A stretch of DNA of 21,204 bases from IMG/VR virus record IMGVR_UViG_3300028812_000025, positions 1 to 21,204 of that record; one strand, written 5' to 3'. Made by a program: the position numbers and the translations under genes. Below are positions 4,597 through 16,886 of the stretch, piece after piece. Source of the DNA: a virus. Each line of letters opens with the position of its first letter. Position 1 is the stretch's first letter. The notes beneath the pieces are model-generated. The model was not told the DNA's origin, ran no database searches, and worked only from the letters and a program-made list of their open reading frames with translations.

Positions 4597-5540
4597 GCCA
4601 CGCCCGCCTGCCGGTAGCGTTCGAGCAGCAGCTTCATATCACCCGACACGGCCAGCGACTCGCCGGATGAGGTGTCCGAATCCACCTTGTAGGTGTAGAT
4701 TCCGATCGTCTCCGACACCACGCCGCCCCCGCCGACCCCGACGGACAGGAGCCGGTCGCCCGCGAGCTGGATCGTCGCCTCACGAATCGTGGACGGGAGC
4801 AATGGGGCCCCGGCCAGCACGTCGGCGGGCTTGACCGCGTACCCGTGCGAGTAGGTGATGTGGTAGCGCTCACCGATGGCCCAACAGAAGTTGCCGAGCC
4901 GCCGCAGCCCCGAGCGCCCCTCGATCTCGTAGTCGGACGCGTCGAGCGGATCTTCGGCGCTTTCGGGGAGCACCTCGGTGATGGACACGATGGGCATCTC
5001 CGGCAGGGTCATCAGCCGAAGGCCGTTGCCCCACATGACGATCTCTTCGTCCTCGACGTACTCGACCCGCTGATCCAGCCAGTCGCGGATGGCTTGCGAC
5101 GCGGTTTCCAGATAGCGGATCGCGGTGGCGTTGTCCTGTAGATCGGAGCCGGTCGCGCCTTCGAGGTCTGAAATCGTGGCGAAGATTGGGGGGTAGATCG
5201 AGACGTCCTGCTCGGTCCCCAGCTCTTCGAGGATTTCGATCGAGTCGTAGCCGATGGTCGGGAACGACTGAACCTCGTTGCTGACGAACGTGACCTGCCA
5301 TTCGCCGTAGTACGAGCCCGGCGGGTAAGTGATCGCGGCGGGCCAGGCGTATTCGACCTGCCCGCCAGATCCGTCCCCGACCAGATCCGCTTCCTCGTCC
5401 AGGACCGTTTCGCCGTTGACTGGGCGAAGGATGAACCGGACGGTAGCGCCAACGAGGCTGACGATCTCACCCTCGCCATCCCGAAGGGTGGTGAGGATTG
5501 CGGGTGAGTCGTCCCCCTGTTTGATGTAGTACTCTGCCAT
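4593..5540 (-). CDS. head-tail connector (gp6-like) with BppU-like N-terminal domain
   Basis: 315 residues in two parts. Residues 1-107 (YIKQGDDSPAILTTLRDGEG, ATVRFILRPVNGETVLDEEA, PGSYYGEWQVTF, IGYDSIEI) match the BppU N-terminal beta-sandwich pattern found in baseplate upper proteins and phage Ig-like modules. Residues ~118-310 match the head-tail connector of the HK97 gp6/SPP1 gp15 type: a start helix ATISDLEGATGSDL, then TASQAIRDWLDQRVEYV, MPIVSITEV, DYEIEGRSGLRRL, YHITYSHGYA and STIREATIQLAGDRLLS. The second part should form the ring beneath the portal. The ATG overlaps the fibre stop (TGATG) with GGAGG seven bases upstream. The fusion of the two parts is unusual. The stop overlaps the next start (GTGA). 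Confidence 0.8.
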   Translation of the reverse strand: MAEYYIKQGDDSPAILTTLRDGEGEIVSLVGATVRFILRPVNGETVLDEEADLVGDGSGGQVEYAWPAAITYPPGSYYGEWQVTFVSNEVQSFPTIGYDSIEILEELGTEQDVSIYPPIFATISDLEGATGSDLQDNATAIRYLETASQAIRDWLDQRVEYVEDEEIVMWGNGLRLMTLPEMPIVSITEVLPESAEDPLDASDYEIEGRSGLRRLGNFCWAIGERYHITYSHGYAVKPADVLAGAPLLPSTIREATIQLAGDRLLSVGVGGGGVVSETIGIYTYKVDSDTSSGESLAVSGDMKLLLERYRQAGVA

Positions 5541-8404
5541 CAGTCCACCTCCGACGAGCTGCCCCCTGGGGAGGCGCTCGATGTTGCGGGAACCGTGCCC
5601 CTGATTGAGGACCGGCTGCCCGCCCCATTCCCGATAGTGCTGGACCCACCGGGGTCGGTAGCGGTGGACGTGCTCCCGGATGATACCACGCCCGAGCGCC
5701 CCGGTCCATGTACCGGCCGACCCACCGGAGTAAACGAGCTGAGTCCCGTGATCGTGACTCGGCCGACTCCGAGCGTGGAGAGCGTGCCGAGTGCCTGTTT
5801 GCGGCTCGAGGTAAACAGCGCCCCGATGCCGGAGGCGGTGACGATCCCGGTCCGGTCCGTGTCTGCGTTGACCGAGCAGGTGCCCCGCCCCGTGACCGTC
5901 ATCGTCGCGCGAGCCCGCTTTCGACCCGACACCGCGACTGCGCCCACGGCCCCGATCGAGATCGCCGCTCGCCCGACCTTGCGCGAGCTGAGAGTGAAGG
6001 TCCCGACTCCGGTAATCGTGATGTTGGCGCTGGGGCTGATCGTGTAGCGACCGACCCCCGTCACCGTCATCATCGCGAATGCGTGCTTGGTCGCAGCGAC
6101 CGTGCACCGGCCGACGCCCGAAACGGTGATCGCCGAGCTGACGCGCTTGCGTCCGGTAACGGCCACAACACCGATCCCGGTCACAGAGGCGGTGCCTCGC
6201 CTGTGCGACCGAGCGGTGCTCGAAACGGTGCCTACACCGGAGCACACGATCGCGGAGCTGGGGCTGACGTTGAAGCGCCCCACTCCGGAGATCGAGAACG
6301 TGCCCTTAGCCTTCTTGGTGCCGGTGGCGGTGACTGCACCCACGCCCGACACGGAAACCGCAGATCGTCCGCCCTTCGCCCCCGAACAGGCTACCGACCC
6401 AACGCCCGAGAGACTCAGGGCGGACGATCCACGCTTACGGCCGGTGAACGTCACCGACGCAATGCCAGAAATCGAAATGGTTGTCCGGGCCCGCTTGCGC
6501 CCGGTCACGGCGACGGTGCCGACCCCGGTCACGGTGATCGTAGTCGAGAATCCAACCTGATCGCCGGTGGCCGTGATCTGCCCGATGCCGGAAACCGCAA
6601 TGGTGCTGGCCGCTCGCTTGCGACCCGTCACGGCCACCGTACCCACGCCCGAGATAGTGCCCGTCGTGCGCCGTCCTGGGCGTCCCGTGACCACGACGTG
6701 ACCGACGCCGGTCGTAGTGGCCGTCCCCCGGTGCGCCCCGCGCGGAGTCACGGAGCAGCTTCCGACTCCGGTTACGGTGATCGCGGACTGGGCCCGCTTT
6801 CGCCCAACTACCGCCACCCCTCCGATGCCGGAGACGGTGAAGCTCGTGGCGGCCCGCTTGCGGCCGGTGACTGCGACTGACCCAATGCCCGAAACCGTGA
6901 TGTTGGACTTGCCGTTCTTGCGGCTCGAACATGTGACGGAGCCGATCCCCGAGACGGTGGCCGTAGCAAGCGCCTTTTTGCGACCGGTGACGGCGACCGC
7001 GCCGATCCCGCTGACCGTGATCGCGGCTTGGCCCTTCTTGCGACCGGTGCAGGAGACGGAACCGACGCCCGTGACCGTGATCGTGCTCTTAGCGTTCTTG
7101 CGGCCCGTGATCGCGATTGCGCCGATGGCGCTGATCGTGAACGAACCCAAGACCGGCGGAGTGGCCGTGGAGCCGGTGGCCTCAACGACGCCGATGCCGC
7201 TGATCCGGATCCCGACGACGAGAGACTCACCGCCCTCGTTGTCCAGCAGGGCAAGTAGCCCCCGGAATAGCCCAGCCCCGCCGCCGGTTCCGGTGTAGGT
7301 CGCGATCGCCTTCTTCTTGCCGGTGATCGTGATCGAGCCGACCCCGGAGAGGTTAGGAGTGGCGGTCGTTCCGCGCTTGCGCCCCGTGCTGGTGATGGTG
7401 CCAATGCCGCTGACGGTGATCGTGCTCTTGCCGCCCTTGCGGCCGGTTGCGGCGACAGCTCCAATGCCGCTGACGCTGATCGTGTTAGCGGCGCGCTTGC
7501 GGCCCTGGATGGTGATCGAGCCCACGCCCGAGAGGGCGGTAGTCGCCGTCGTCCCCCGCTTGCGGCCGGTAATCGCAATTGCGCCGATTCCCGACACGGC
7601 CATCGTCCCGGTCTTGACGACCGCGAAGGCGTCGGTGAGGACCGGGTAGCGGTAGTTGCTGGCCCCGATGTTGTCGATGTTGAGGACGGCGAACCGGCCG
7701 GTTCCCAGGATCGAGCCGAACCTGGTGTCAATGAACCCGCCGACACCGAAGTCCGCGCCGCCGCTCAGTGATTCGGTCGGGGTCGAGCTATTCGGGTCCG
7801 TGTAGATTCGGATCGCGCCACTACCGAACCGCAGGGCGTCGCCCTGGATTGCCTCAACCTCGATCTTGAATCGGGTGTTGGGCGTCGGGATGGTGCTGAG
7901 CGTGGCGATGACGCTGAAACTCGCGTCGAGCAACTCTAAGGCTCCGGACGTGCTGTTGACTCGGAGCGAGATGCCAGCGGTGCCGTCGGACTCGCTCAAT
8001 CGCCACAGGACCGTGTTCGCCGCCGGGACGGCGCTGAACTTTGGGCGGAACCCGACGAAGATGTGCCTCTGAGGGACCGCGAAATCCCACTGGTAGTAGG
8101 AGTTCTGGTTGGCACCGCTGGTGATCAAGTAGTCGTAGGTGCCACTCGGAGCGCCGTCGTCGTCGTAGACTGAGGTTGCGCTACCGCCGATGACGACTGC
8201 ATCCCAGGCCCGACCCGACCCGCCACCGCTGTTGCCCGTCGTGACGGTGGTGCCGTCCGAGGAAGCACCCTCAGCGGTGTTGGTGTATTCGAAGGGGAGC
8301 GGGCTTGAGGGGAAGCGCCGCGTGTCGAGTGCGTATCGGTCGCCCGCTCGACGCCGAAAGACGCCGCCGCGAACGCGCCCGCGTGGGACGCTAGATCGCG
8401 CCAA
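5540..8404 (-). CDS. giant repeat fibre: LamG-like head + ~30 x 20-residue repeats
   Basis: 954 residues. Residues 1-50 are Arg-rich; ~55-260 form a concanavalin/LamG-like domain (DYLITSGANQNSYYQWDF, HIFVGFRPKFSAVPAANTV, TRFKIEVEAIQGDALRFGSG). Residues ~268-887 are about 30 tandem copies of a 20-residue unit with consensus TVSGIGAVAVTGRKRAxxTI: two short strands joined by a GIG turn and ended by a basic GRKR turn. This predicts a long, strongly basic beta-repeat rod. Residues ~888-954 are a Ser/Gly/Thr-rich tail. One interruption follows the fifth repeat. The TTG at 8404 has AAGAGG eight bases upstream and no ATG occurs nearby. It ends in TGATG overlapping the connector gene. It is probably a head- or tail-attached fibre; no homologous named protein is recognised. 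Confidence 0.8.
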   Translation of the reverse strand: MARSSVPRGRVRGGVFRRRAGDRYALDTRRFPSSPLPFEYTNTAEGASSDGTTVTTGNSGGGSGRAWDAVVIGGSATSVYDDDGAPSGTYDYLITSGANQNSYYQWDFAVPQRHIFVGFRPKFSAVPAANTVLWRLSESDGTAGISLRVNSTSGALELLDASFSVIATLSTIPTPNTRFKIEVEAIQGDALRFGSGAIRIYTDPNSSTPTESLSGGADFGVGGFIDTRFGSILGTGRFAVLNIDNIGASNYRYPVLTDAFAVVKTGTMAVSGIGAIAITGRKRGTTATTALSGVGSITIQGRKRAANTISVSGIGAVAATGRKGGKSTITVSGIGTITSTGRKRGTTATPNLSGVGSITITGKKKAIATYTGTGGGAGLFRGLLALLDNEGGESLVVGIRISGIGVVEATGSTATPPVLGSFTISAIGAIAITGRKNAKSTITVTGVGSVSCTGRKKGQAAITVSGIGAVAVTGRKKALATATVSGIGSVTCSSRKNGKSNITVSGIGSVAVTGRKRAATSFTVSGIGGVAVVGRKRAQSAITVTGVGSCSVTPRGAHRGTATTTGVGHVVVTGRPGRRTTGTISGVGTVAVTGRKRAASTIAVSGIGQITATGDQVGFSTTITVTGVGTVAVTGRKRARTTISISGIASVTFTGRKRGSSALSLSGVGSVACSGAKGGRSAVSVSGVGAVTATGTKKAKGTFSISGVGRFNVSPSSAIVCSGVGTVSSTARSHRRGTASVTGIGVVAVTGRKRVSSAITVSGVGRCTVAATKHAFAMMTVTGVGRYTISPSANITITGVGTFTLSSRKVGRAAISIGAVGAVAVSGRKRARATMTVTGRGTCSVNADTDRTGIVTASGIGALFTSSRKQALGTLSTLGVGRVTITGLSSFTPVGRPVHGPGRSGVVSSGSTSTATDPGGSSTIGNGAGSRSSIRGTVPATSSASPGGSSSEVD
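5745..7603 (-). repeat. 60-base tandem repeat array coding 20-residue units
   Basis: Degenerate 60-base direct repeats, around 30 copies, cover this part of the fibre gene. Successive copies keep the pattern (T/S)(V/I)(S/T)G(I/V)G then (A/S)V then (V/C)TGRK and diverge most in the four to five residues after GRK. A few copies are 16-21 residues long and lack the basic turn (for example those ending in SPSSAI and SPSANI). The copies have drifted enough at DNA level that they are not a recent expansion. Confidence 0.85.
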
Positions 8405-10958: not shown

Positions 10959-11315
10959 TTACGAGTCGGTGATGCTGAGGGTCGCGGCGGTGATCTGGTA
11001 GGTGCCTTGCGCGCCGAAAACCTCGTCCGTCACGTTCGCCGACCCGTAGAACGCGCCGGAGGTCACGGCATCCCACAGGCCCACGTAGCTCACGGTGTCG
11101 CCGCCCTCGACGTCGAACGTCGGAAGCGAGTTGCCGGAGGCGCTGCCGGACGAGGCCGCGTTCCAGGTGACGGCCTTACGAGCGTAGGCGGGAGATCCAC
11201 CCGCCAGCTCGCTCGAACCACCCGACCCCGGGTCCGCGCTGTGCAGGCTCAGGAAGTCCACGACGGCCGTCAGGGCGTCGAGCATCAGGTTCTTGCCGGT
11301 GTTGTTGAACGGCAT
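10959..11315 (-). CDS. small virion-surface or tail-type structural protein
   Basis: 118 residues, starting at an ATG with GGAG about ten bases upstream. The layout FNNTGKNLMLDALTAVVDFLSLHSADPG, then YARKAVTWNAAS, FDVEGGDTVSYVGLWDA and FGAQGTYQITAATLSI matches a small beta-rich family that I associate with structural or minor tail proteins of actinobacteriophages (gp80-like); this is from memory and not searched. The pattern suggests an N-terminal helix followed by a beta sandwich. Its position directly after the glycosyltransferases and before other fibre-like genes points to a virion-surface role, perhaps as a head decoration. Confidence 0.7.
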   Translation of the reverse strand: MPFNNTGKNLMLDALTAVVDFLSLHSADPGSGGSSELAGGSPAYARKAVTWNAASSGSASGNSLPTFDVEGGDTVSYVGLWDAVTSGAFYGSANVTDEVFGAQGTYQITAATLSITDS

Positions 11316-11317
11316 TC

Positions 11318-12046
11318 CTACATCTCCTCTCGTGATGCTACCAATTCGGCCATCCGGTCTGGGTATCTGCTTGCTTTGTCGTAAGCCCGGACGAGCGCGT
11401 TGTTCCGGTCTCGGTGGTCTGTTTCACCTTCCCAGTGATCGTTCCCCGACTTGCCGATGCGGGGGTGCCACAGGTGGATCGAGTAGCCCCTTACCTGCTG
11501 GGGCTTACCGACCAGCGAACGCAACGTCAGGCAGAACGCCTCATCCTCTTTACCCCACCCCCTGAATCGTTCGTCCATGCCGCCCGCTCGAAAAAACTGC
11601 TCCCGAGTGACGAGAGTAGGGGGAGCGGCCCAGTAGGTGTTGCGGTTTTCCAGGCGACCGTGCCGCTCCCATAGGGGCTTCAATCCCTCGTCCCACGAGG
11701 TGAGCCCGAGCAGCTCCTCGGTATCATCCTGTCCGAGCTTCACCTTCTGGTTCCAGGGCCGTCCCCACATCTTTTCGTTCTCCGTGATCAGCTGGACCGC
11801 CCGGAGAACTTGGTTGTGCGGAACCCATGTATCCGCGTCCCCGATCAAGATCAGGTCGCGTGTCGCTTTTGCCGCCGCGCGGTTGAGGGCGAGCGTCTTG
11901 TGAAATGGATCCTCTCCGTCGTCCGACTCGACGATGACCTCAGCCCCGGGGAGCCATCTGGCGTACTGCTTTTCGAGGAAGGACCACAGACGGCCCCGGT
12001 GCCCGTCTTCGCTATCGCGAAACGCAATGAGTACCGAGAGGTTCAC
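11318..12046 (-). CDS. glycosyltransferase, GT-A fold (GT2/GT7-like)
   Basis: Third transferase of the cassette (242 residues). It shows an N-terminal GT-A strand (NLSVLIAFRD), LALNRAAAKA, the DXD in ILIGDADTW (D70, D72), a substrate loop NTYWAAPPTLV, GWGKED (153-158) and HLWH (181-184). This is the same motif order as the C-terminal half of the two-domain enzyme upstream, suggesting duplication and divergence. The GTG at 12046 overlaps the preceding TGA (GTGA), so translation is probably coupled; its own Shine-Dalgarno is weak. No membrane segment is seen. The next gene starts two bases beyond its stop, and the ribosome site of that gene lies within its last codons. Donor and acceptor are unknown. 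Confidence 0.85.
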   Translation of the reverse strand: MNLSVLIAFRDSEDGHRGRLWSFLEKQYARWLPGAEVIVESDDGEDPFHKTLALNRAAAKATRDLILIGDADTWVPHNQVLRAVQLITENEKMWGRPWNQKVKLGQDDTEELLGLTSWDEGLKPLWERHGRLENRNTYWAAPPTLVTREQFFRAGGMDERFRGWGKEDEAFCLTLRSLVGKPQQVRGYSIHLWHPRIGKSGNDHWEGETDHRDRNNALVRAYDKASRYPDRMAELVASREEM

Positions 12047-13386
12047 CGCGAAGACCCTACGAGGCTCCTCAGAGCCATCGGATCCCCCGCAGCAGCCCGA
12101 TACAACTCTTTGCGCTGGTCGTTGGCCTGGCTGGGGTCGGTTCGTTCGTGCCATAGGTGCCAGATCGTCCCGTTCAGATCGCTGAGTCCACCCGGGGCCA
12201 ACGTCTCGCAAGCGATCCTGAATGCGACGTCCTCGTGGCCCCAGCCTACAAACTCCTCGTCGAAGCCTCCGACGGCATCCCACGCGGCACGAGAGACTAC
12301 GATCGGACCGCCCCGGTGCGCCATCGGCAGTCGGGAGGGGGTCTTGTCCGTGTGGTCACGGTCGTTGAGACGGTGCCGGTACGGGAGCTTGTCCTCGTAG
12401 CGTCGCATCCGGTCCGAGCCGTCGCGGCTGAGCTTGTGCCGCAAGCGCCACGGAATGACGGCCGACTCCTGCTTGAGGGCCTGCGTCATGGCCTTGCGAA
12501 TGGCGTCGGGCTCCCCGATCGTGTCGGCGTCCGCGATGAGCGCCACGTCCCAATCTTCGGCCTCTGCGGCAGCCTTGTTGATGGCCGCGCTGCGGTTCCA
12601 AGGCCCATCGGAGTCGGCGGTGACGATCGGCAGTCCCAGCTCTTCGAGCCGGAACCTGGTGTATTCCCACGCGAGCGTCCGCTCCTCGTCCTCGATCCGC
12701 AGCGGCACCAGGATGACCGCCTTCGTCTGATTCACGATCTTGTTCTCCTGTGCGTCGTCGCCCCACCCCTTGGCCCAATGATGGACCGCGAAGGTGTCGG
12801 GGTGGTAGTTGGCGGGGTCCCCGAGCAGGTGGCGCTCCCACCAGCCTACCGGATAGAAGGTCCACGGAGGAAGCCTCTTCACATCGCTTCGGCCGCGCCA
12901 CAACGAGGTTGCGTATTCGGGGCCGGTCGCGTAGTTGGGCGTCTTCTCTTCGGTCCGTGCGCAGCTATCCGGTAGGCCGGTGAGCAGCACCTTGACCGCA
13001 GGGTGTTTCGGCGGAGAGCCTAGGATCGCCGTACACATGGTGCGGTCATTTTCCCACGCCGCAAACGGCTTGCCGCCGTCCAGCAGCTCGTCGATCGGGC
13101 GGAGGGGCTCGAAATCCGTATCGATGTACACGCCGCCGAATCGGTACAGCAGCGAGTATCGCAAGATGTCGGGAATCCGCCCAAAAGGGTCAGATTCGAT
13201 ATAGCGGTCCCACAGGGGCAGCAGATCGGCCGACGTGAGCATCTTCCGGGCCTCGCCGGAGTCCTGCCACGTCCGAATCTCCCAGTCAGGGTGCAGCTCC
13301 GCGAGCTTGTCGCGCCATGCGGCAAACCCCGGGCGCTCTTCCTCGTCGAGCCAGATCCGGTGAAAGATCTTCGGCCAAGCTACCAC
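12043..13386 (-). CDS. two-domain glycosyltransferase (GT32-like + GT2/GT7-like)
   Basis: A 447-residue protein with two catalytic domains in tandem. Residues 1-215 resemble the DXD sugar transferase family (Gly_transf_sug/OCH1-like, GT32): IPKIFHRIW-type start (PKIFHRIW, 5-12), RIPDILRYSLLYRFGG (70-85), the DXD in YIDTDFEPL (D89, D91), and VHHWAKGW (201-208). Residues 222-447 form a GT-A domain akin to the two single-domain transferases of this cassette: AVILVPLR, NRSAAINKAA, DXD in LIADADT (D286, D288), GWGHED (381-386) and HLWH (410-413). All key residues of both domains are present, so it may add two sugars in sequence. The start is GTG at 13386, with a GGAGGGG about ten bases upstream. 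It overlaps the methyltransferase by 7 bases and the next gene by 4 (GTGA). Confidence 0.87.
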   Translation of the reverse strand: MVAWPKIFHRIWLDEEERPGFAAWRDKLAELHPDWEIRTWQDSGEARKMLTSADLLPLWDRYIESDPFGRIPDILRYSLLYRFGGVYIDTDFEPLRPIDELLDGGKPFAAWENDRTMCTAILGSPPKHPAVKVLLTGLPDSCARTEEKTPNYATGPEYATSLWRGRSDVKRLPPWTFYPVGWWERHLLGDPANYHPDTFAVHHWAKGWGDDAQENKIVNQTKAVILVPLRIEDEERTLAWEYTRFRLEELGLPIVTADSDGPWNRSAAINKAAAEAEDWDVALIADADTIGEPDAIRKAMTQALKQESAVIPWRLRHKLSRDGSDRMRRYEDKLPYRHRLNDRDHTDKTPSRLPMAHRGGPIVVSRAAWDAVGGFDEEFVGWGHEDVAFRIACETLAPGGLSDLNGTIWHLWHERTDPSQANDQRKELYRAAAGDPMALRSLVGSSR

Positions 13387-14033
13387 CGGCCGAACACCCC
13401 TCCCCAGGCCTTCTGCTCGACGCGTCCGACGGGGTTACGGCGGGCTCTCGTCTCTCGGTACACCTCATCGAGGACGACTGTACGGCCCGGACCTCCGCAC
13501 CACTCCTGCAGATCTTCAACGTGCAGCGTGTGGGGGTGCCCCAAGTAGGGCTCGGTTTCCACCCACTCGAAGATCCGTACCACGGCGGCCACCCGGAACA
13601 TCTGCTCGATGATAGCCCGGGGGTCGTGGACGTGCTGCAAGACGTTGTACATCCATGCTCCGTCGAACGAGGTATCCCGAAAATCTGGCAAGGCGTCCTC
13701 AGCGGGGGCCTTGATGACCTCGATGCCGTGGTGATCGTAACGAGCCAGCGTCCACGCGGGGTAATCGCAAGGGTCAACAACCACACCCTGCACGAGCCCG
13801 GTGCACTTCAACAGCATCGAAGCGGGGCCGCCACCCACATCGAGGATTCGACGACCCCCCATGTCCCAGGTCGGCCACTTGTCGCCGCCCTTCCAGGGGC
13901 CGGGATCCATGCCCATGACCTTCGCGTAGGCGATCTGCTTGGTCTCTTCGCCGTAGGTGTTGGCGCAATCGCCCCACCAATCGGACTCGAAGTGTTGGTG
14001 GGTTTCCTCCCACTCCTGACGCGTCAGACCCAT
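13380..14033 (-). CDS. class I SAM-dependent methyltransferase
   Basis: Predicted methyltransferase (217 residues) with SAM-binding motif I ILDVGGGPASM (63-73), an acidic strand-2 end VVVDP (84-88), and the motif IV/V region SFDGAWMYNVLQHVHDP (about 112-128), which matches the Methyltransf_11/UbiE-like class. It is not a DNA methylase by motif: there is no PC or DPPY signature. The ATG at 14033 overlaps the end of the epimerase gene by 10 bases, and the stop overlaps the next glycosyltransferase start by 7 bases. The surroundings suggest O-methylation of a sugar in the glycan made by the cassette. A protein or small-molecule target cannot be excluded. Confidence 0.85.
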   Translation of the reverse strand: MGLTRQEWEETHQHFESDWWGDCANTYGEETKQIAYAKVMGMDPGPWKGGDKWPTWDMGGRRILDVGGGPASMLLKCTGLVQGVVVDPCDYPAWTLARYDHHGIEVIKAPAEDALPDFRDTSFDGAWMYNVLQHVHDPRAIIEQMFRVAAVVRIFEWVETEPYLGHPHTLHVEDLQEWCGGPGRTVVLDEVYRETRARRNPVGRVEQKAWGGVFGRW

Positions 14034-14848
14034 TGCTCGATCACCGTCCGCAGCCCCGTGACGGGCTTCCACTCGACCTCGCGTCGGATCAGCGATGGAT
14101 CCAGCACGAGATGGCCGTCGTCCTCTCGACCGGGCCCTTGATGCACCCGAATGTTCTTCCCGGCGTCTCGGAATACCCGGACCAGTTCTTCGGGGCTCGT
14201 CCCGATCCCCGTGGACACGTTGTAGGTCCGGTAGCCCGGTCCGAGACGGGTCGCGCACGCCATCATGGCGTCGGCCACGTCGCCGGCAAACACGTAATCC
14301 CTCTTGGGCCACATGTTGCCGAGCTTGATCGTCCCGCCGCCTGCGAGGATCGGAGCGAGGTGCGGAGTCTCGTCTCCCGGCCCGATCACGTTCGAGAGCC
14401 TCAGGGACGTGCAAGAGGCCGCCGAAGCCCGCGAGAAGACCTTCAAGAGGTTCTCCGCGTCCACCTTGGACAGTCCGTAAACGTCCCGGGGCCGCAAGAT
14501 GTCGCTCTCGTAGAACGGCTGATTGCCGAAGCCATACACGGCGGCTGACGAGGCCAGCACGATCGACTTCACGCAATCCAAACCCTCTAGCCCCATCAGA
14601 ACCCGGCCGGTCCCCGCCGCGTTCACCTGGTAGGTTTGCGTCGGGTGCTTGCGACACCAGGGGATGAAATGGCGGGCTGCGAGGTGGAAGACCATCTGCG
14701 GACGGAAGTTGTGAACCATCATATCCGCAAAGAGAATATCCAGACCGTCTTTTTCGTCGATCCCGAACACCTCGTGGTCCTGCTCCTGCAACTTCTTCAT
14801 GAGGTAGCCGCCGATGAACCCGAGATGGCCCGTCACCAGCACCCGCAT
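14024..14848 (-). CDS. NAD-dependent sugar epimerase/dehydratase (extended SDR)
   Basis: Rossmann-fold enzyme predicted to remodel a nucleotide sugar (274 residues). The cofactor motif TGHLGFIGG is at residues 6-14, the catalytic Ser region ASSAAVYG at about 99-106, and the catalytic YxxxK pair in DVYGLSK (Y124, K128). Mid-protein HLAARHFIPW and RLSNVIGPGD and the C-terminal RDYVFAGDVADAM are typical of the NDP-sugar epimerase/dehydratase family. It is slightly shorter than the usual 300-330 residues. The ATG at 14848 overlaps the upstream stop (TGATG) and has AAGGA eight bases before it. It probably supplies or alters the donor used by the neighbouring transferases; whether it is a 4-epimerase or a dehydratase cannot be told from sequence alone. 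Confidence 0.88.
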   Translation of the reverse strand: MRVLVTGHLGFIGGYLMKKLQEQDHEVFGIDEKDGLDILFADMMVHNFRPQMVFHLAARHFIPWCRKHPTQTYQVNAAGTGRVLMGLEGLDCVKSIVLASSAAVYGFGNQPFYESDILRPRDVYGLSKVDAENLLKVFSRASAASCTSLRLSNVIGPGDETPHLAPILAGGGTIKLGNMWPKRDYVFAGDVADAMMACATRLGPGYRTYNVSTGIGTSPEELVRVFRDAGKNIRVHQGPGREDDGHLVLDPSLIRREVEWKPVTGLRTVIEQWV

Positions 14849-15537
14849 CAGAAAATGTCCTTGTTCGGAGTCTGACGCTGATTGCCGAGCCAGCGGTCGA
14901 TCGCCTCTGCATTGCGCGACAGGAGCGCCCGGTAAGCCTTCACGGACTCCTGACGGGCCCTGTTCTCGTGTCCGGAGTGGTAGTGATGCCACGCCTGGCC
15001 CGGCAGACGGTCCCAAGAGGCCTTCGCGAGCAATTCGAGGTTCATCGCGGAATCCTCGTAGCCCCAGCCAACGAAAGACTCGTCGTAGCCGCCGACCAGC
15101 TCAAATGCGGAGCGGTGGACGACCAACAACCCGCCACCTCTCCACATCTGCCCGATGTGACGCGGGCGGCCGTTCCGAGCGTAGTTGAGAGCCCCGGGAC
15201 CCCTCTGAGCGAGTACCGTAGACCCGTCGAAGGTGGTCATCCACCGTTCGAGATGGGGTCGAGCGCCCCCGCGCGTATCCAGGACCCACGCGACGGCTCG
15301 CCGCACGCTCCCGGGGTCGGGGATGGTGTCGCAGTCCGAAAAGAGCGCCACATCCCATTTGGCCTGCTCTGCTGCTGCGTTGCAGGCCTCGGCTCGCGAC
15401 CATGCCTCGCCGCGCGGTTCCCCCACGTACACGGGGTATCCCAACGCCTCCAAGCTCGGTCGCGATACGTCCCAACACCATTCCCGGCGCTCGTCTCCCC
15501 CTCGAAACGGCACCAGGGTAACGATCTTCGTGGCCAA
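14848..15537 (-). CDS. glycosyltransferase, GT-A fold (GT2/GT7-like)
   Basis: Predicted cytoplasmic nucleotide-sugar transferase (229 residues). It opens with a beta strand typical of GT-A enzymes (KIVTLVPFRGG), has a metal-binding DXD in LFSDCDT (D68-C-D70), the acceptor/metal motif GWGYED (137-142) as in galactosyltransferase C-terminal domains (Glyco_transf_7C), and a His-rich motif HHYHSGH (164-170). No signal peptide or membrane segment is seen. I start at the TTG at 15537: GGGAG lies six bases upstream and the longer frame would run into the capsid gene. Its TGA overlaps the ATG of the epimerase by one base. The domain is related to two other domains in this cassette. Substrate and acceptor are unknown; virion proteins are an inference. 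Confidence 0.85.
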   Translation of the reverse strand: MATKIVTLVPFRGGDERREWCWDVSRPSLEALGYPVYVGEPRGEAWSRAEACNAAAEQAKWDVALFSDCDTIPDPGSVRRAVAWVLDTRGGARPHLERWMTTFDGSTVLAQRGPGALNYARNGRPRHIGQMWRGGGLLVVHRSAFELVGGYDESFVGWGYEDSAMNLELLAKASWDRLPGQAWHHYHSGHENRARQESVKAYRALLSRNAEAIDRWLGNQRQTPNKDIF

Positions 15538-15602: not shown

Positions 15603-16835
15603 CTAGCTGACGATCGAGACGACGCTGAACGCGTCGGGCCGCTGCAGGAACAGCACGGCCCGCTCTTCCGCGCGGATCGCGGTCAAGTTGTTCAGGAAGT
15701 CGTCCTCGTTGCTGTTGGTGGCGTCCACCGAGACGCCCCCACCCTTGCGCCAGATCGTGCCGCCCTCGCGGAAGGCCCCGACGACCACGTTGCCGTCGCC
15801 CAACCGCTCGGTGATGGCCACCCGGTAGCGCCCCCACAGGAGCGTTCCCGGAGCCTGCCACGGCCCGCCCGACAGGTAGCGGCCCTGCTCATCCTTCGCG
15901 ACCAGCATCGTCGCGTAGTCGAGCATCGTCATGGCCACCGCGTCGGCCGAGAGGCCACCGTAGCGCATGACGTCCACCGCACCCGCCAGGATGGCGTCGT
16001 ACATGTTGTCGCCGCCCACGTCGGCGGCGATTGCCGACTGACCCGCCTGCGCGAGCAGCTGGGTCACGAACGTGTCTTCCCGCTTCTGACGAACGAAGGT
16101 CGCCAGTCGCTGGTTCAGGTACGAACGCATCGCCGTCTCGTCTTCGAGCATCTCGGTCGAAACCTTGATGACCGTGGCGATCTTGCTCAGCGTCGCCGTC
16201 TCGGTGTTGAACTGGATGTCGGAAGCGGGCTTCTCCGCCGCCTCCAAGACGACATCCGCGTTGTTGTCCGTCACCGTCTCGCGCACCAGGAGCACGGTGT
16301 TGCCCTGGGTCACGGTCGCGGTGGCGAACAGGTCGGTGAGCCCCAGCGGGACCTCGACCGGCTCCTGGATGCCCGGGATCCGGGCGGGCAGGAACATCTC
16401 GTCGTTGTCGCCCGCGTTCTCGGTCACGATCCCGGCCACAGCCCCGAACTCGGGGAGCTGGATCGGGCCCATGGCGAACTTACCGGCGGTCCCGCGCTCG
16501 CGCAGGGCCCGGTAAGCGTCCGACGCCACGAACACGTCACCGATGGTGAGCATCTTGCCCTTCGGGGCCTCCACGGTCCCGTCACCGATCTGGGGGTTCG
16601 GGCTCAGGTCAGCGATCTGCTGCGCCAGCGCCCGGTTCTCCTGCTCGGTCTTGATCTTGCCGTTGAAACCGTGCGCCTCGCCCGTGTGGTGCTTGACGAT
16701 CTCCCGCTCCTCTTCCGTGAGGTCGCGGAACTCCGCCTGGGCCTTGCGCACGATCTGTTCGGCCGCTCCGACGTGCTTGGCCTTCTCCGCCTCGAAGTAT
16801 TCGAGCATCGAAGGCGCGTCTGCCGTCTGCGTCAC
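15603..16835 (-). CDS. major capsid protein, HK97 fold
   Basis: Shell subunit of the head (410 residues). The first ~95 residues are charged and predicted helical or coiled coil (EAEKAKHVGAAEQIVRKAQ and following), fitting the delta/scaffold domain cleaved off by the S49 protease encoded just upstream. The rest has the pattern of HK97-like capsid proteins, including the TLSKIATVIKVSTEMLED region, a long spine helix with FVRQKREDTFV, and a C terminus ending RPDAFSVVSIVS. The GTG at 16835 is preferred because AAGGAG precedes it by seven to eight bases; an in-frame GTG eleven codons upstream has no comparable site. A 51-base gap separates it from the protease gene, and a strong hairpin follows its stop. 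Confidence 0.93.
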   Translation of the reverse strand: MTQTADAPSMLEYFEAEKAKHVGAAEQIVRKAQAEFRDLTEEEREIVKHHTGEAHGFNGKIKTEQENRALAQQIADLSPNPQIGDGTVEAPKGKMLTIGDVFVASDAYRALRERGTAGKFAMGPIQLPEFGAVAGIVTENAGDNDEMFLPARIPGIQEPVEVPLGLTDLFATATVTQGNTVLLVRETVTDNNADVVLEAAEKPASDIQFNTETATLSKIATVIKVSTEMLEDETAMRSYLNQRLATFVRQKREDTFVTQLLAQAGQSAIAADVGGDNMYDAILAGAVDVMRYGGLSADAVAMTMLDYATMLVAKDEQGRYLSGGPWQAPGTLLWGRYRVAITERLGDGNVVVGAFREGGTIWRKGGGVSVDATNSNEDDFLNNLTAIRAEERAVLFLQRPDAFSVVSIVS

Positions 16836-16886
16836 CTCGGTTCTCCTTCCGTGCGGTGGTTCACTCACTCACGGCCAGGTAGGCCG

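Follow-up and report, generated by a model that had tools for sequence, protein, structure and literature searches.

A putative virion-glycosylation gene cassette behind the capsid gene of an uncultivated tailed phage

IMG/VR record IMGVR_UViG_3300028812_000025 is a contig from an uncultivated tailed phage, analysed here over its whole length of 21,204 bases (the window). Since the window is the entire contig, it represents a fragment of the phage genome. Five overlapping minus-strand genes (15537-11318), located between an HK97-type capsid gene and a head-protein gene, encode three glycosyltransferases (GT1, GT2 and GT3), a nucleotide-sugar epimerase (EPI) and a methyltransferase (MT), as listed in Table 1. 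On the strength of their sequences, we consider it very likely that these genes form a late-expressed, cytosolic cassette that builds a short methylated glycan on the phage's own particles. Glycosylation of the virion had been suggested in an earlier note on this DNA. The suggestion is strengthened here by the homology of the GT7C domains to glycosyltransferases (GTs) of cluster O phages and Che8, by a methyltransferase and three-GT layout like that of Corndog, and by a conserved placement between capsid and connector genes.

The genes on the minus strand run in the order small terminase, large terminase, portal, S49 protease, HK97 capsid, the five enzyme genes, a gp80-like head protein, several serine/threonine-rich (Ser/Thr-rich) open reading frames (ORFs) including a 954-residue repeat protein, and then head-tail adaptor, other connectors, tail terminator, tail assembly chaperone and tape measure. 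The cassette is thus flanked by capsid and surface-type genes, as the earlier note had it: a PF05065 capsid upstream, and a phrog_240 head protein and Ser/Thr-rich ORFs downstream. The five ORFs and the overlaps that it described are also present, these being TGATG for GT1/EPI, 10 bases for EPI/MT, 7 bases for MT/GT2 and GTGA for GT2/GT3. GT1 starts with a TTG codon, with an AAGGGAG ribosome site.

Table 1. Positions of the cassette genes and of other features in the window and in related phages.
Feature	Position	Strand	Evidence or remark
GT1, GT7C (beta-1,4-galactosyltransferase-like) glycosyltransferase, 229 residues	14848..15537	-	Glyco_transf_7C 7e-8; phrog_1721 6.7e-20
EPI, GalE-like nucleotide-sugar epimerase (SDR), 274 residues	14024..14848	-	Epimerase 4.2e-36; phrog_540 5e-41
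MT, class I S-adenosylmethionine (SAM) methyltransferase of phrog_3603, 217 residues	13380..14033	-	Methyltransf_11 2.8e-9; phrog_3603 2.6e-41
GT2, bifunctional glycosyltransferase, 447 residues	12043..13386	-	Gly_transf_sug 4.1e-11; Glyco_transf_7C 4e-6; phrog_1721 3.6e-23
GT3, GT7C glycosyltransferase, 242 residues	11318..12046	-	Glyco_transf_7C 2.3e-6; phrog_1721 3.3e-21
HK97-fold major capsid protein	15603..16868	-	PF05065 2.9e-26; phrog_10 1.1e-34; immediately upstream of the cassette
UUCG-capped GC hairpin right behind the capsid stop codon	15560..15598	-	GGGGGGCC-TTCG-GGCCCCCC; no T tract
gp80-like head protein	10959..11315	-	phrog_240 5e-24; PF23140 1.8e-12; Ser+Thr 23%
954-residue repetitive Ser/Thr-rich protein	5540..8404	-	Sequence and composition; Ser+Thr 26%
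Carbohydrate-type sulfotransferase, L004	7938-8534		PF03567 5e-16; PHROG galactose-3-O-sulfotransferase
GDP-fucose pathway (GDP-mannose 4,6-dehydratase and GDP-L-fucose synthase homologue), L015, also L012	3892-6457		Between capsid and connectors

Evidence from Pfam, PHROGs, motifs and fold is concordant on the classes of the five enzymes. Pfam and intact motifs confirm that the three transferase genes carry four catalytic domains, GT2 having an N-terminal GT32-like (Gly_transf_sug) domain, with an intact YIDTD, and a C-terminal GT7C domain (GT2C). All three GT7C domains (GT1, GT2C and GT3) retain DxD and GWGxED, which in GT1 read SDCDT and GWGYED. The structural comparison of the transferases proposed in the earlier note was run on GT3, whose AlphaFold model (predicted local distance difference test score, pLDDT, 86) resembles K4 chondroitin polymerase, beta4GalT1 and ppGalNAc-T in Foldseek. 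With a predicted GT-A fold, DxD and GWGxED, GT3 would be a GT7/beta4GalT-like enzyme. The model of GT2 had a pLDDT of 35 from a thin alignment and was not used. The assignment of MT as a methyltransferase stands, its DVGGG motif being intact. EPI had been described as an epimerase/dehydratase, of which only the first half is retained. Its GxxGFIG and YxxxK motifs are intact, its top match in the PDB is a UDP-glucose 4-epimerase (2e-19), and it matches the GalE model at 1.3e-29, a score under the equivalog cut-off. The substrate loop reads ASSAAVYG, which we take to be of the GalE type, and lacks the Asp-Glu pair (as in S-T-D-E-V-Y-G) that presumably marks 4,6-dehydratases; a nucleotide-sugar 4,6-dehydratase is ruled out by this active-site loop.

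The link to virion glycosylation comes from phages in which it has been described. Freeman 2023, as cited in PMC12363180, PMC11600133 and PMC12619734, describes glycans on the virion proteins of the mycobacterial phages Che8, Corndog and Myrna, added by the phages' own GTs; according to the first two of the citing papers, the cluster O enzymes modify the capsid and the tail tube. All GT7C domains of the window are homologous to the middle GT of the cluster O and Che8 virion-glycosylation clusters: a profile built from the GT3 family reaches 104 bits with Catdawg gp35 and 90 bits with Che8 gp109, and GT1 is homologous to Catdawg gp35 with 41 bits. When used alone as the query, GT1 retrieved nothing related from phage records or IMG/VR. 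In Corndog, gp35-38 comprise three GTs and an O-methyltransferase, encoded between the portal and protease genes (PMC4351075). The window matches the cluster O layout in having a methyltransferase adjacent to its GTs in the head operon, MT overlapping both EPI and GT2.

The placement of the cassette recurs in diverged relatives. The contig of another phage (L165) has the epimerase (42% identity), the methyltransferase (56%) and the bifunctional GT (46% over its full length) in the same order as the window, with a head-tail adaptor directly after this trio, and L016 has a methyltransferase (53%) and a bifunctional GT (45%), followed by connectors. A further full-length relative of GT2 is found in L011 (33%), where GT2 and GT3 are fused in a single protein of 722 residues. 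GT3 is the GT most widely shared in the slot between capsid and connectors, with 43-51% identity in L004, L011-L015 and L017, mostly beside connectors, and either GT3 or GT2 stands immediately ahead of the connectors in L004, L005, L012-L017, L165, L166 and L168. GT3 similarity retrieved 50 records, and synteny was counted in the 17 of them with a Pfam capsid match. A GT lies downstream of the capsid gene, on the same strand and within 7.5 kb, in 15 of them, compared with 2.6 expected under random placement. When loci were fetched by capsid similarity, such a GT was found in 3 of 75, 'glycan enzyme' being defined by our own query set. Two of these three are almost the same as each other, and the third is once more the L011 record. 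Since so few capsid-similar loci carry it, the cassette counts as accessory: it is inserted at a preferred place and is not a core part of morphogenesis.

Several points weigh against virion glycosylation as the role of the cassette. The 7.5-kb limit was set after inspection of the data, and the other 33 of the 50 GT3-similar records have no Pfam capsid match, so that their layout falls outside the synteny test. The GTs of Phrappuccino and Che8 are not adjacent to the capsid gene. MT has no detectable relation to the cluster O O-methyltransferase (Catdawg gp33). Finally, Corndog gp38/Che8 gp110 is called the essential GT for capsid glycosylation in PMC12363180, and no homologue of it was found in the window or its close relatives, all of which are fragments; two IMG/VR relatives, Phrappuccino and prophiGD91-2 do have a GT of this type. 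Either another enzyme of the window attaches the first sugar, or the gene lies in the missing part of the genome.

We propose the following mechanism, in which we infer the acceptor, the donor, the order in which sugars are added, the site of methylation, the late expression and any protection gained. While particles are being made, the GalE-like epimerase would turn a host nucleotide sugar into the donor that the phage needs. The four transferase domains would then assemble a short glycan with a maximum of some four sugars. Its carrier would be a virion protein made in abundance, most probably the tail tube and/or the major capsid protein, the latter being our first choice. MT would O-methylate one sugar. 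Capping of the glycan by this methyl group is plausible; it could also sit on an inner sugar. The widely shared GT3-type and GT2C-type enzymes would make a common inner part, while the remaining, exchangeable enzymes would give each phage its own outer sugar. Because GT3 is the most widely shared, and because the capsid is common to sister phages whose slots have no surface ORFs, we favour an early role for GT3 or GT2C, with the capsid or the tail tube as target.

The exchange is clearest in the sister phage L004/L005, whose capsid is 74-79% identical and whose large terminase is 73% identical to those of the window. Only GT3 (51%) and GT2-related GT7C domains (best 45%) are common to the slots. 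Otherwise the L004 slot holds two methyltransferases, one of them of the FkbM type, as well as a Sulfotransfer_2 enzyme and a GT fusion unlike that of the window, with three GT genes in all. Its carbohydrate-type sulfotransferase carries both motifs expected of the site for 3'-phosphoadenosine 5'-phosphosulfate (PKAGCTS and RDPVTRFESFY); a sequence search of the PDB gave no match for it, and a literature search gave no relevant report of a phage virion sulfotransferase. In L015, whose capsid is barely related to that of the window, the slot holds fucose-synthesis genes, with GTs after them. The GDP-mannose 4,6-dehydratase (Gmd) scores above the NCBIfam equivalog cut-off, and the GDP-L-fucose synthase homologue has a PDB match at 3.5e-64. 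It is quite possible, if not quite probable, that the stretch from capsid to connectors is a hot spot at which glycan-writing cassettes are exchanged, in which core transferases are kept and donor-making and decorating enzymes are swapped, giving serotype-like coats with, perhaps, fucosylated or sulfated glycans.

The alternative that survives best overlaps with this proposal, and holds that the glycan acceptor is a surface fibre (the 954-residue repeat protein or the gp80-like head protein) and not the capsid shell. The gp80-like gene begins at 11315, a gap of 2 bases past the stop of GT3, both proteins are rich in Ser/Thr (23-26%), and in L011 the cassette is likewise paired with a large repeat protein. 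However, in L004/L005 and L165 the cassette leads directly into connector genes and the slot contains no fibre-type proteins, though these incomplete genomes could hold fibres elsewhere. Since the slots of the sisters and L165 lack repeat or gp80-like proteins, an acceptor common to all of them ought to be the capsid or the tail tube, and we regard a fibre in place of the capsid as rather unlikely. The gp80-like protein is a possible co-acceptor, and the 954-residue protein, from its sequence, possibly a fibre and an alternative acceptor. The latter has repeats of about 19 residues similar to TVSGIGAVAVTGRKRA, with a DNA repeat period of 60, and is matchless among 50,697 phages. At the equivalent position, L011 has an unrelated 869-residue repeat protein (ATATADALTPTVKVTLLAP-like).

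Phage GTs often modify the host envelope, and GalE-like, Gmd and GDP-fucose synthase enzymes serve envelope polysaccharides too, so that the cassette might instead block superinfection or change the receptor, in the manner of gtr-like conversion. This is very improbable because none of the five proteins has a membrane segment (highest 19-residue Kyte-Doolittle mean 1.28); moreover, no flippase or polyprenyl-phosphate GT is present among the identified ORFs of the window, the genes lie within the head operon, and their homologues modify virions. Glycosylation of phage DNA bases is more improbable still: GTs of viral origin are able to hypermodify DNA (Pyle et al. 2024, as cited in PMC12619734), but no PF00303 enzyme (thymidylate synthase/base hydroxymethylase) was found in 15 relative records of up to 136 kb, and the GTs are located in the head operon and not among replication genes. 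A Tet_JBP search was silent, as was its control, and is uninformative, and the genome behind the window is incomplete. The ranking of both host-receptor and base modification as less likely in the earlier note therefore agrees with what was found here, as neither a membrane enzyme nor a thymidylate-synthase-type base hydroxylase turned up.

The hairpin that follows the capsid gene has a predicted folding energy of -35.3 kcal/mol. A hairpin also follows the capsid gene of the sister L004 (6604-6625, GGGGGGACC-TTCG-GGTCCCCCC), and a base-pair difference between them preserves pairing. Folding is only moderately better than that of shuffled sequence (z -2.28 in the window, and -1.72). The hairpin may be a candidate step-down in expression, by which capsid could be produced in excess over the enzymes. 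Scans for promoters and terminators gave no signal above chance. A GC-rich inverted repeat was noted by eye in L011. Between capsid and cassette, L004 has a small, very basic ORF of 51 residues (6650-6805, MPKAKSKAQARFFGAVAGGKVRKKG...), which was not seen in the window.

Searched at the nucleotide level, a set of 50,697 phage genomes contained no match to the window. The host is likely to be actinobacterial, since the nearest capsids among annotated phages, at about 30% identity, belong to phages of Curtobacterium, Arthrobacter and Microbacterium. No related prophage came up in two scans of genome contigs, made with alignments of terminase and capsid.

In the literature covered, glycosylation of virion proteins by a phage's own enzymes has been demonstrated in just a handful of mycobacterial phages. 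A capsid-linked cassette across diverged, uncultivated phages suggests that it is more widespread, and the exchange of decorating enzymes suggests selection for a changing sugar coat. The recurrence of the epimerase-methyltransferase-GT2 order, the placement of GTs behind the capsid gene and the exchange of enzymes among relatives are new. They provide concrete gene sets with which to test the role of the coat in nature, and draw attention to particular enzymes, namely a bifunctional GT, a phage carbohydrate sulfotransferase and a phage GDP-fucose pathway.

The closest parallels are as follows. Corndog and Catdawg (Corndog gp35-38 being equivalent to Catdawg gp33-36) also have a methyltransferase and three overlapping GTs in the head operon, and Catdawg gp35 is homologous to the GT7C domains of the window. 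Their cassette, however, lies between portal and protease and not behind the capsid, and contains a gp38-type GT and no epimerase, whereas the window has an epimerase and no gp38-type GT was found in it. Che8 (cluster F) has three adjacent GTs, gp108-110, of which gp109 is homologous to the GT7C domains, and virion glycosylation is reported for it in PMC12363180; its GTs are at the far right end of the genome, without an epimerase, and the gp110 type was not found in the window. Phrappuccino gp142-145 and prophiGD91-2 gp73-78 contain consecutive GT32-like, GT7C, GT7C and methyltransferase genes and are the nearest annotated-phage relatives of GT2 and GT3. In both, the halves of GT2 are separate genes (gp142/gp143 in Phrappuccino), and the cassette lies away from the head genes in Phrappuccino and a few kb ahead of the terminase in prophiGD91-2. 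Animal beta-1,4-galactosyltransferases (GT7) share the GT7C domain, DxD and GWGxED, and the overall fold by Foldseek, but with about 14% identity and a template modelling (TM) score of about 0.5, and chondroitin polymerases score equally well or better, so that donor and linkage are not assignable from this likeness. The comparison gives good support to the view that the system is of a known kind, phage virion glycosylation, in a variant distinguished by its address behind the capsid gene, an added donor-making enzyme, a bifunctional GT, a gene set in which no gp38/gp110-type GT was found, and the exchange of decorating enzymes.
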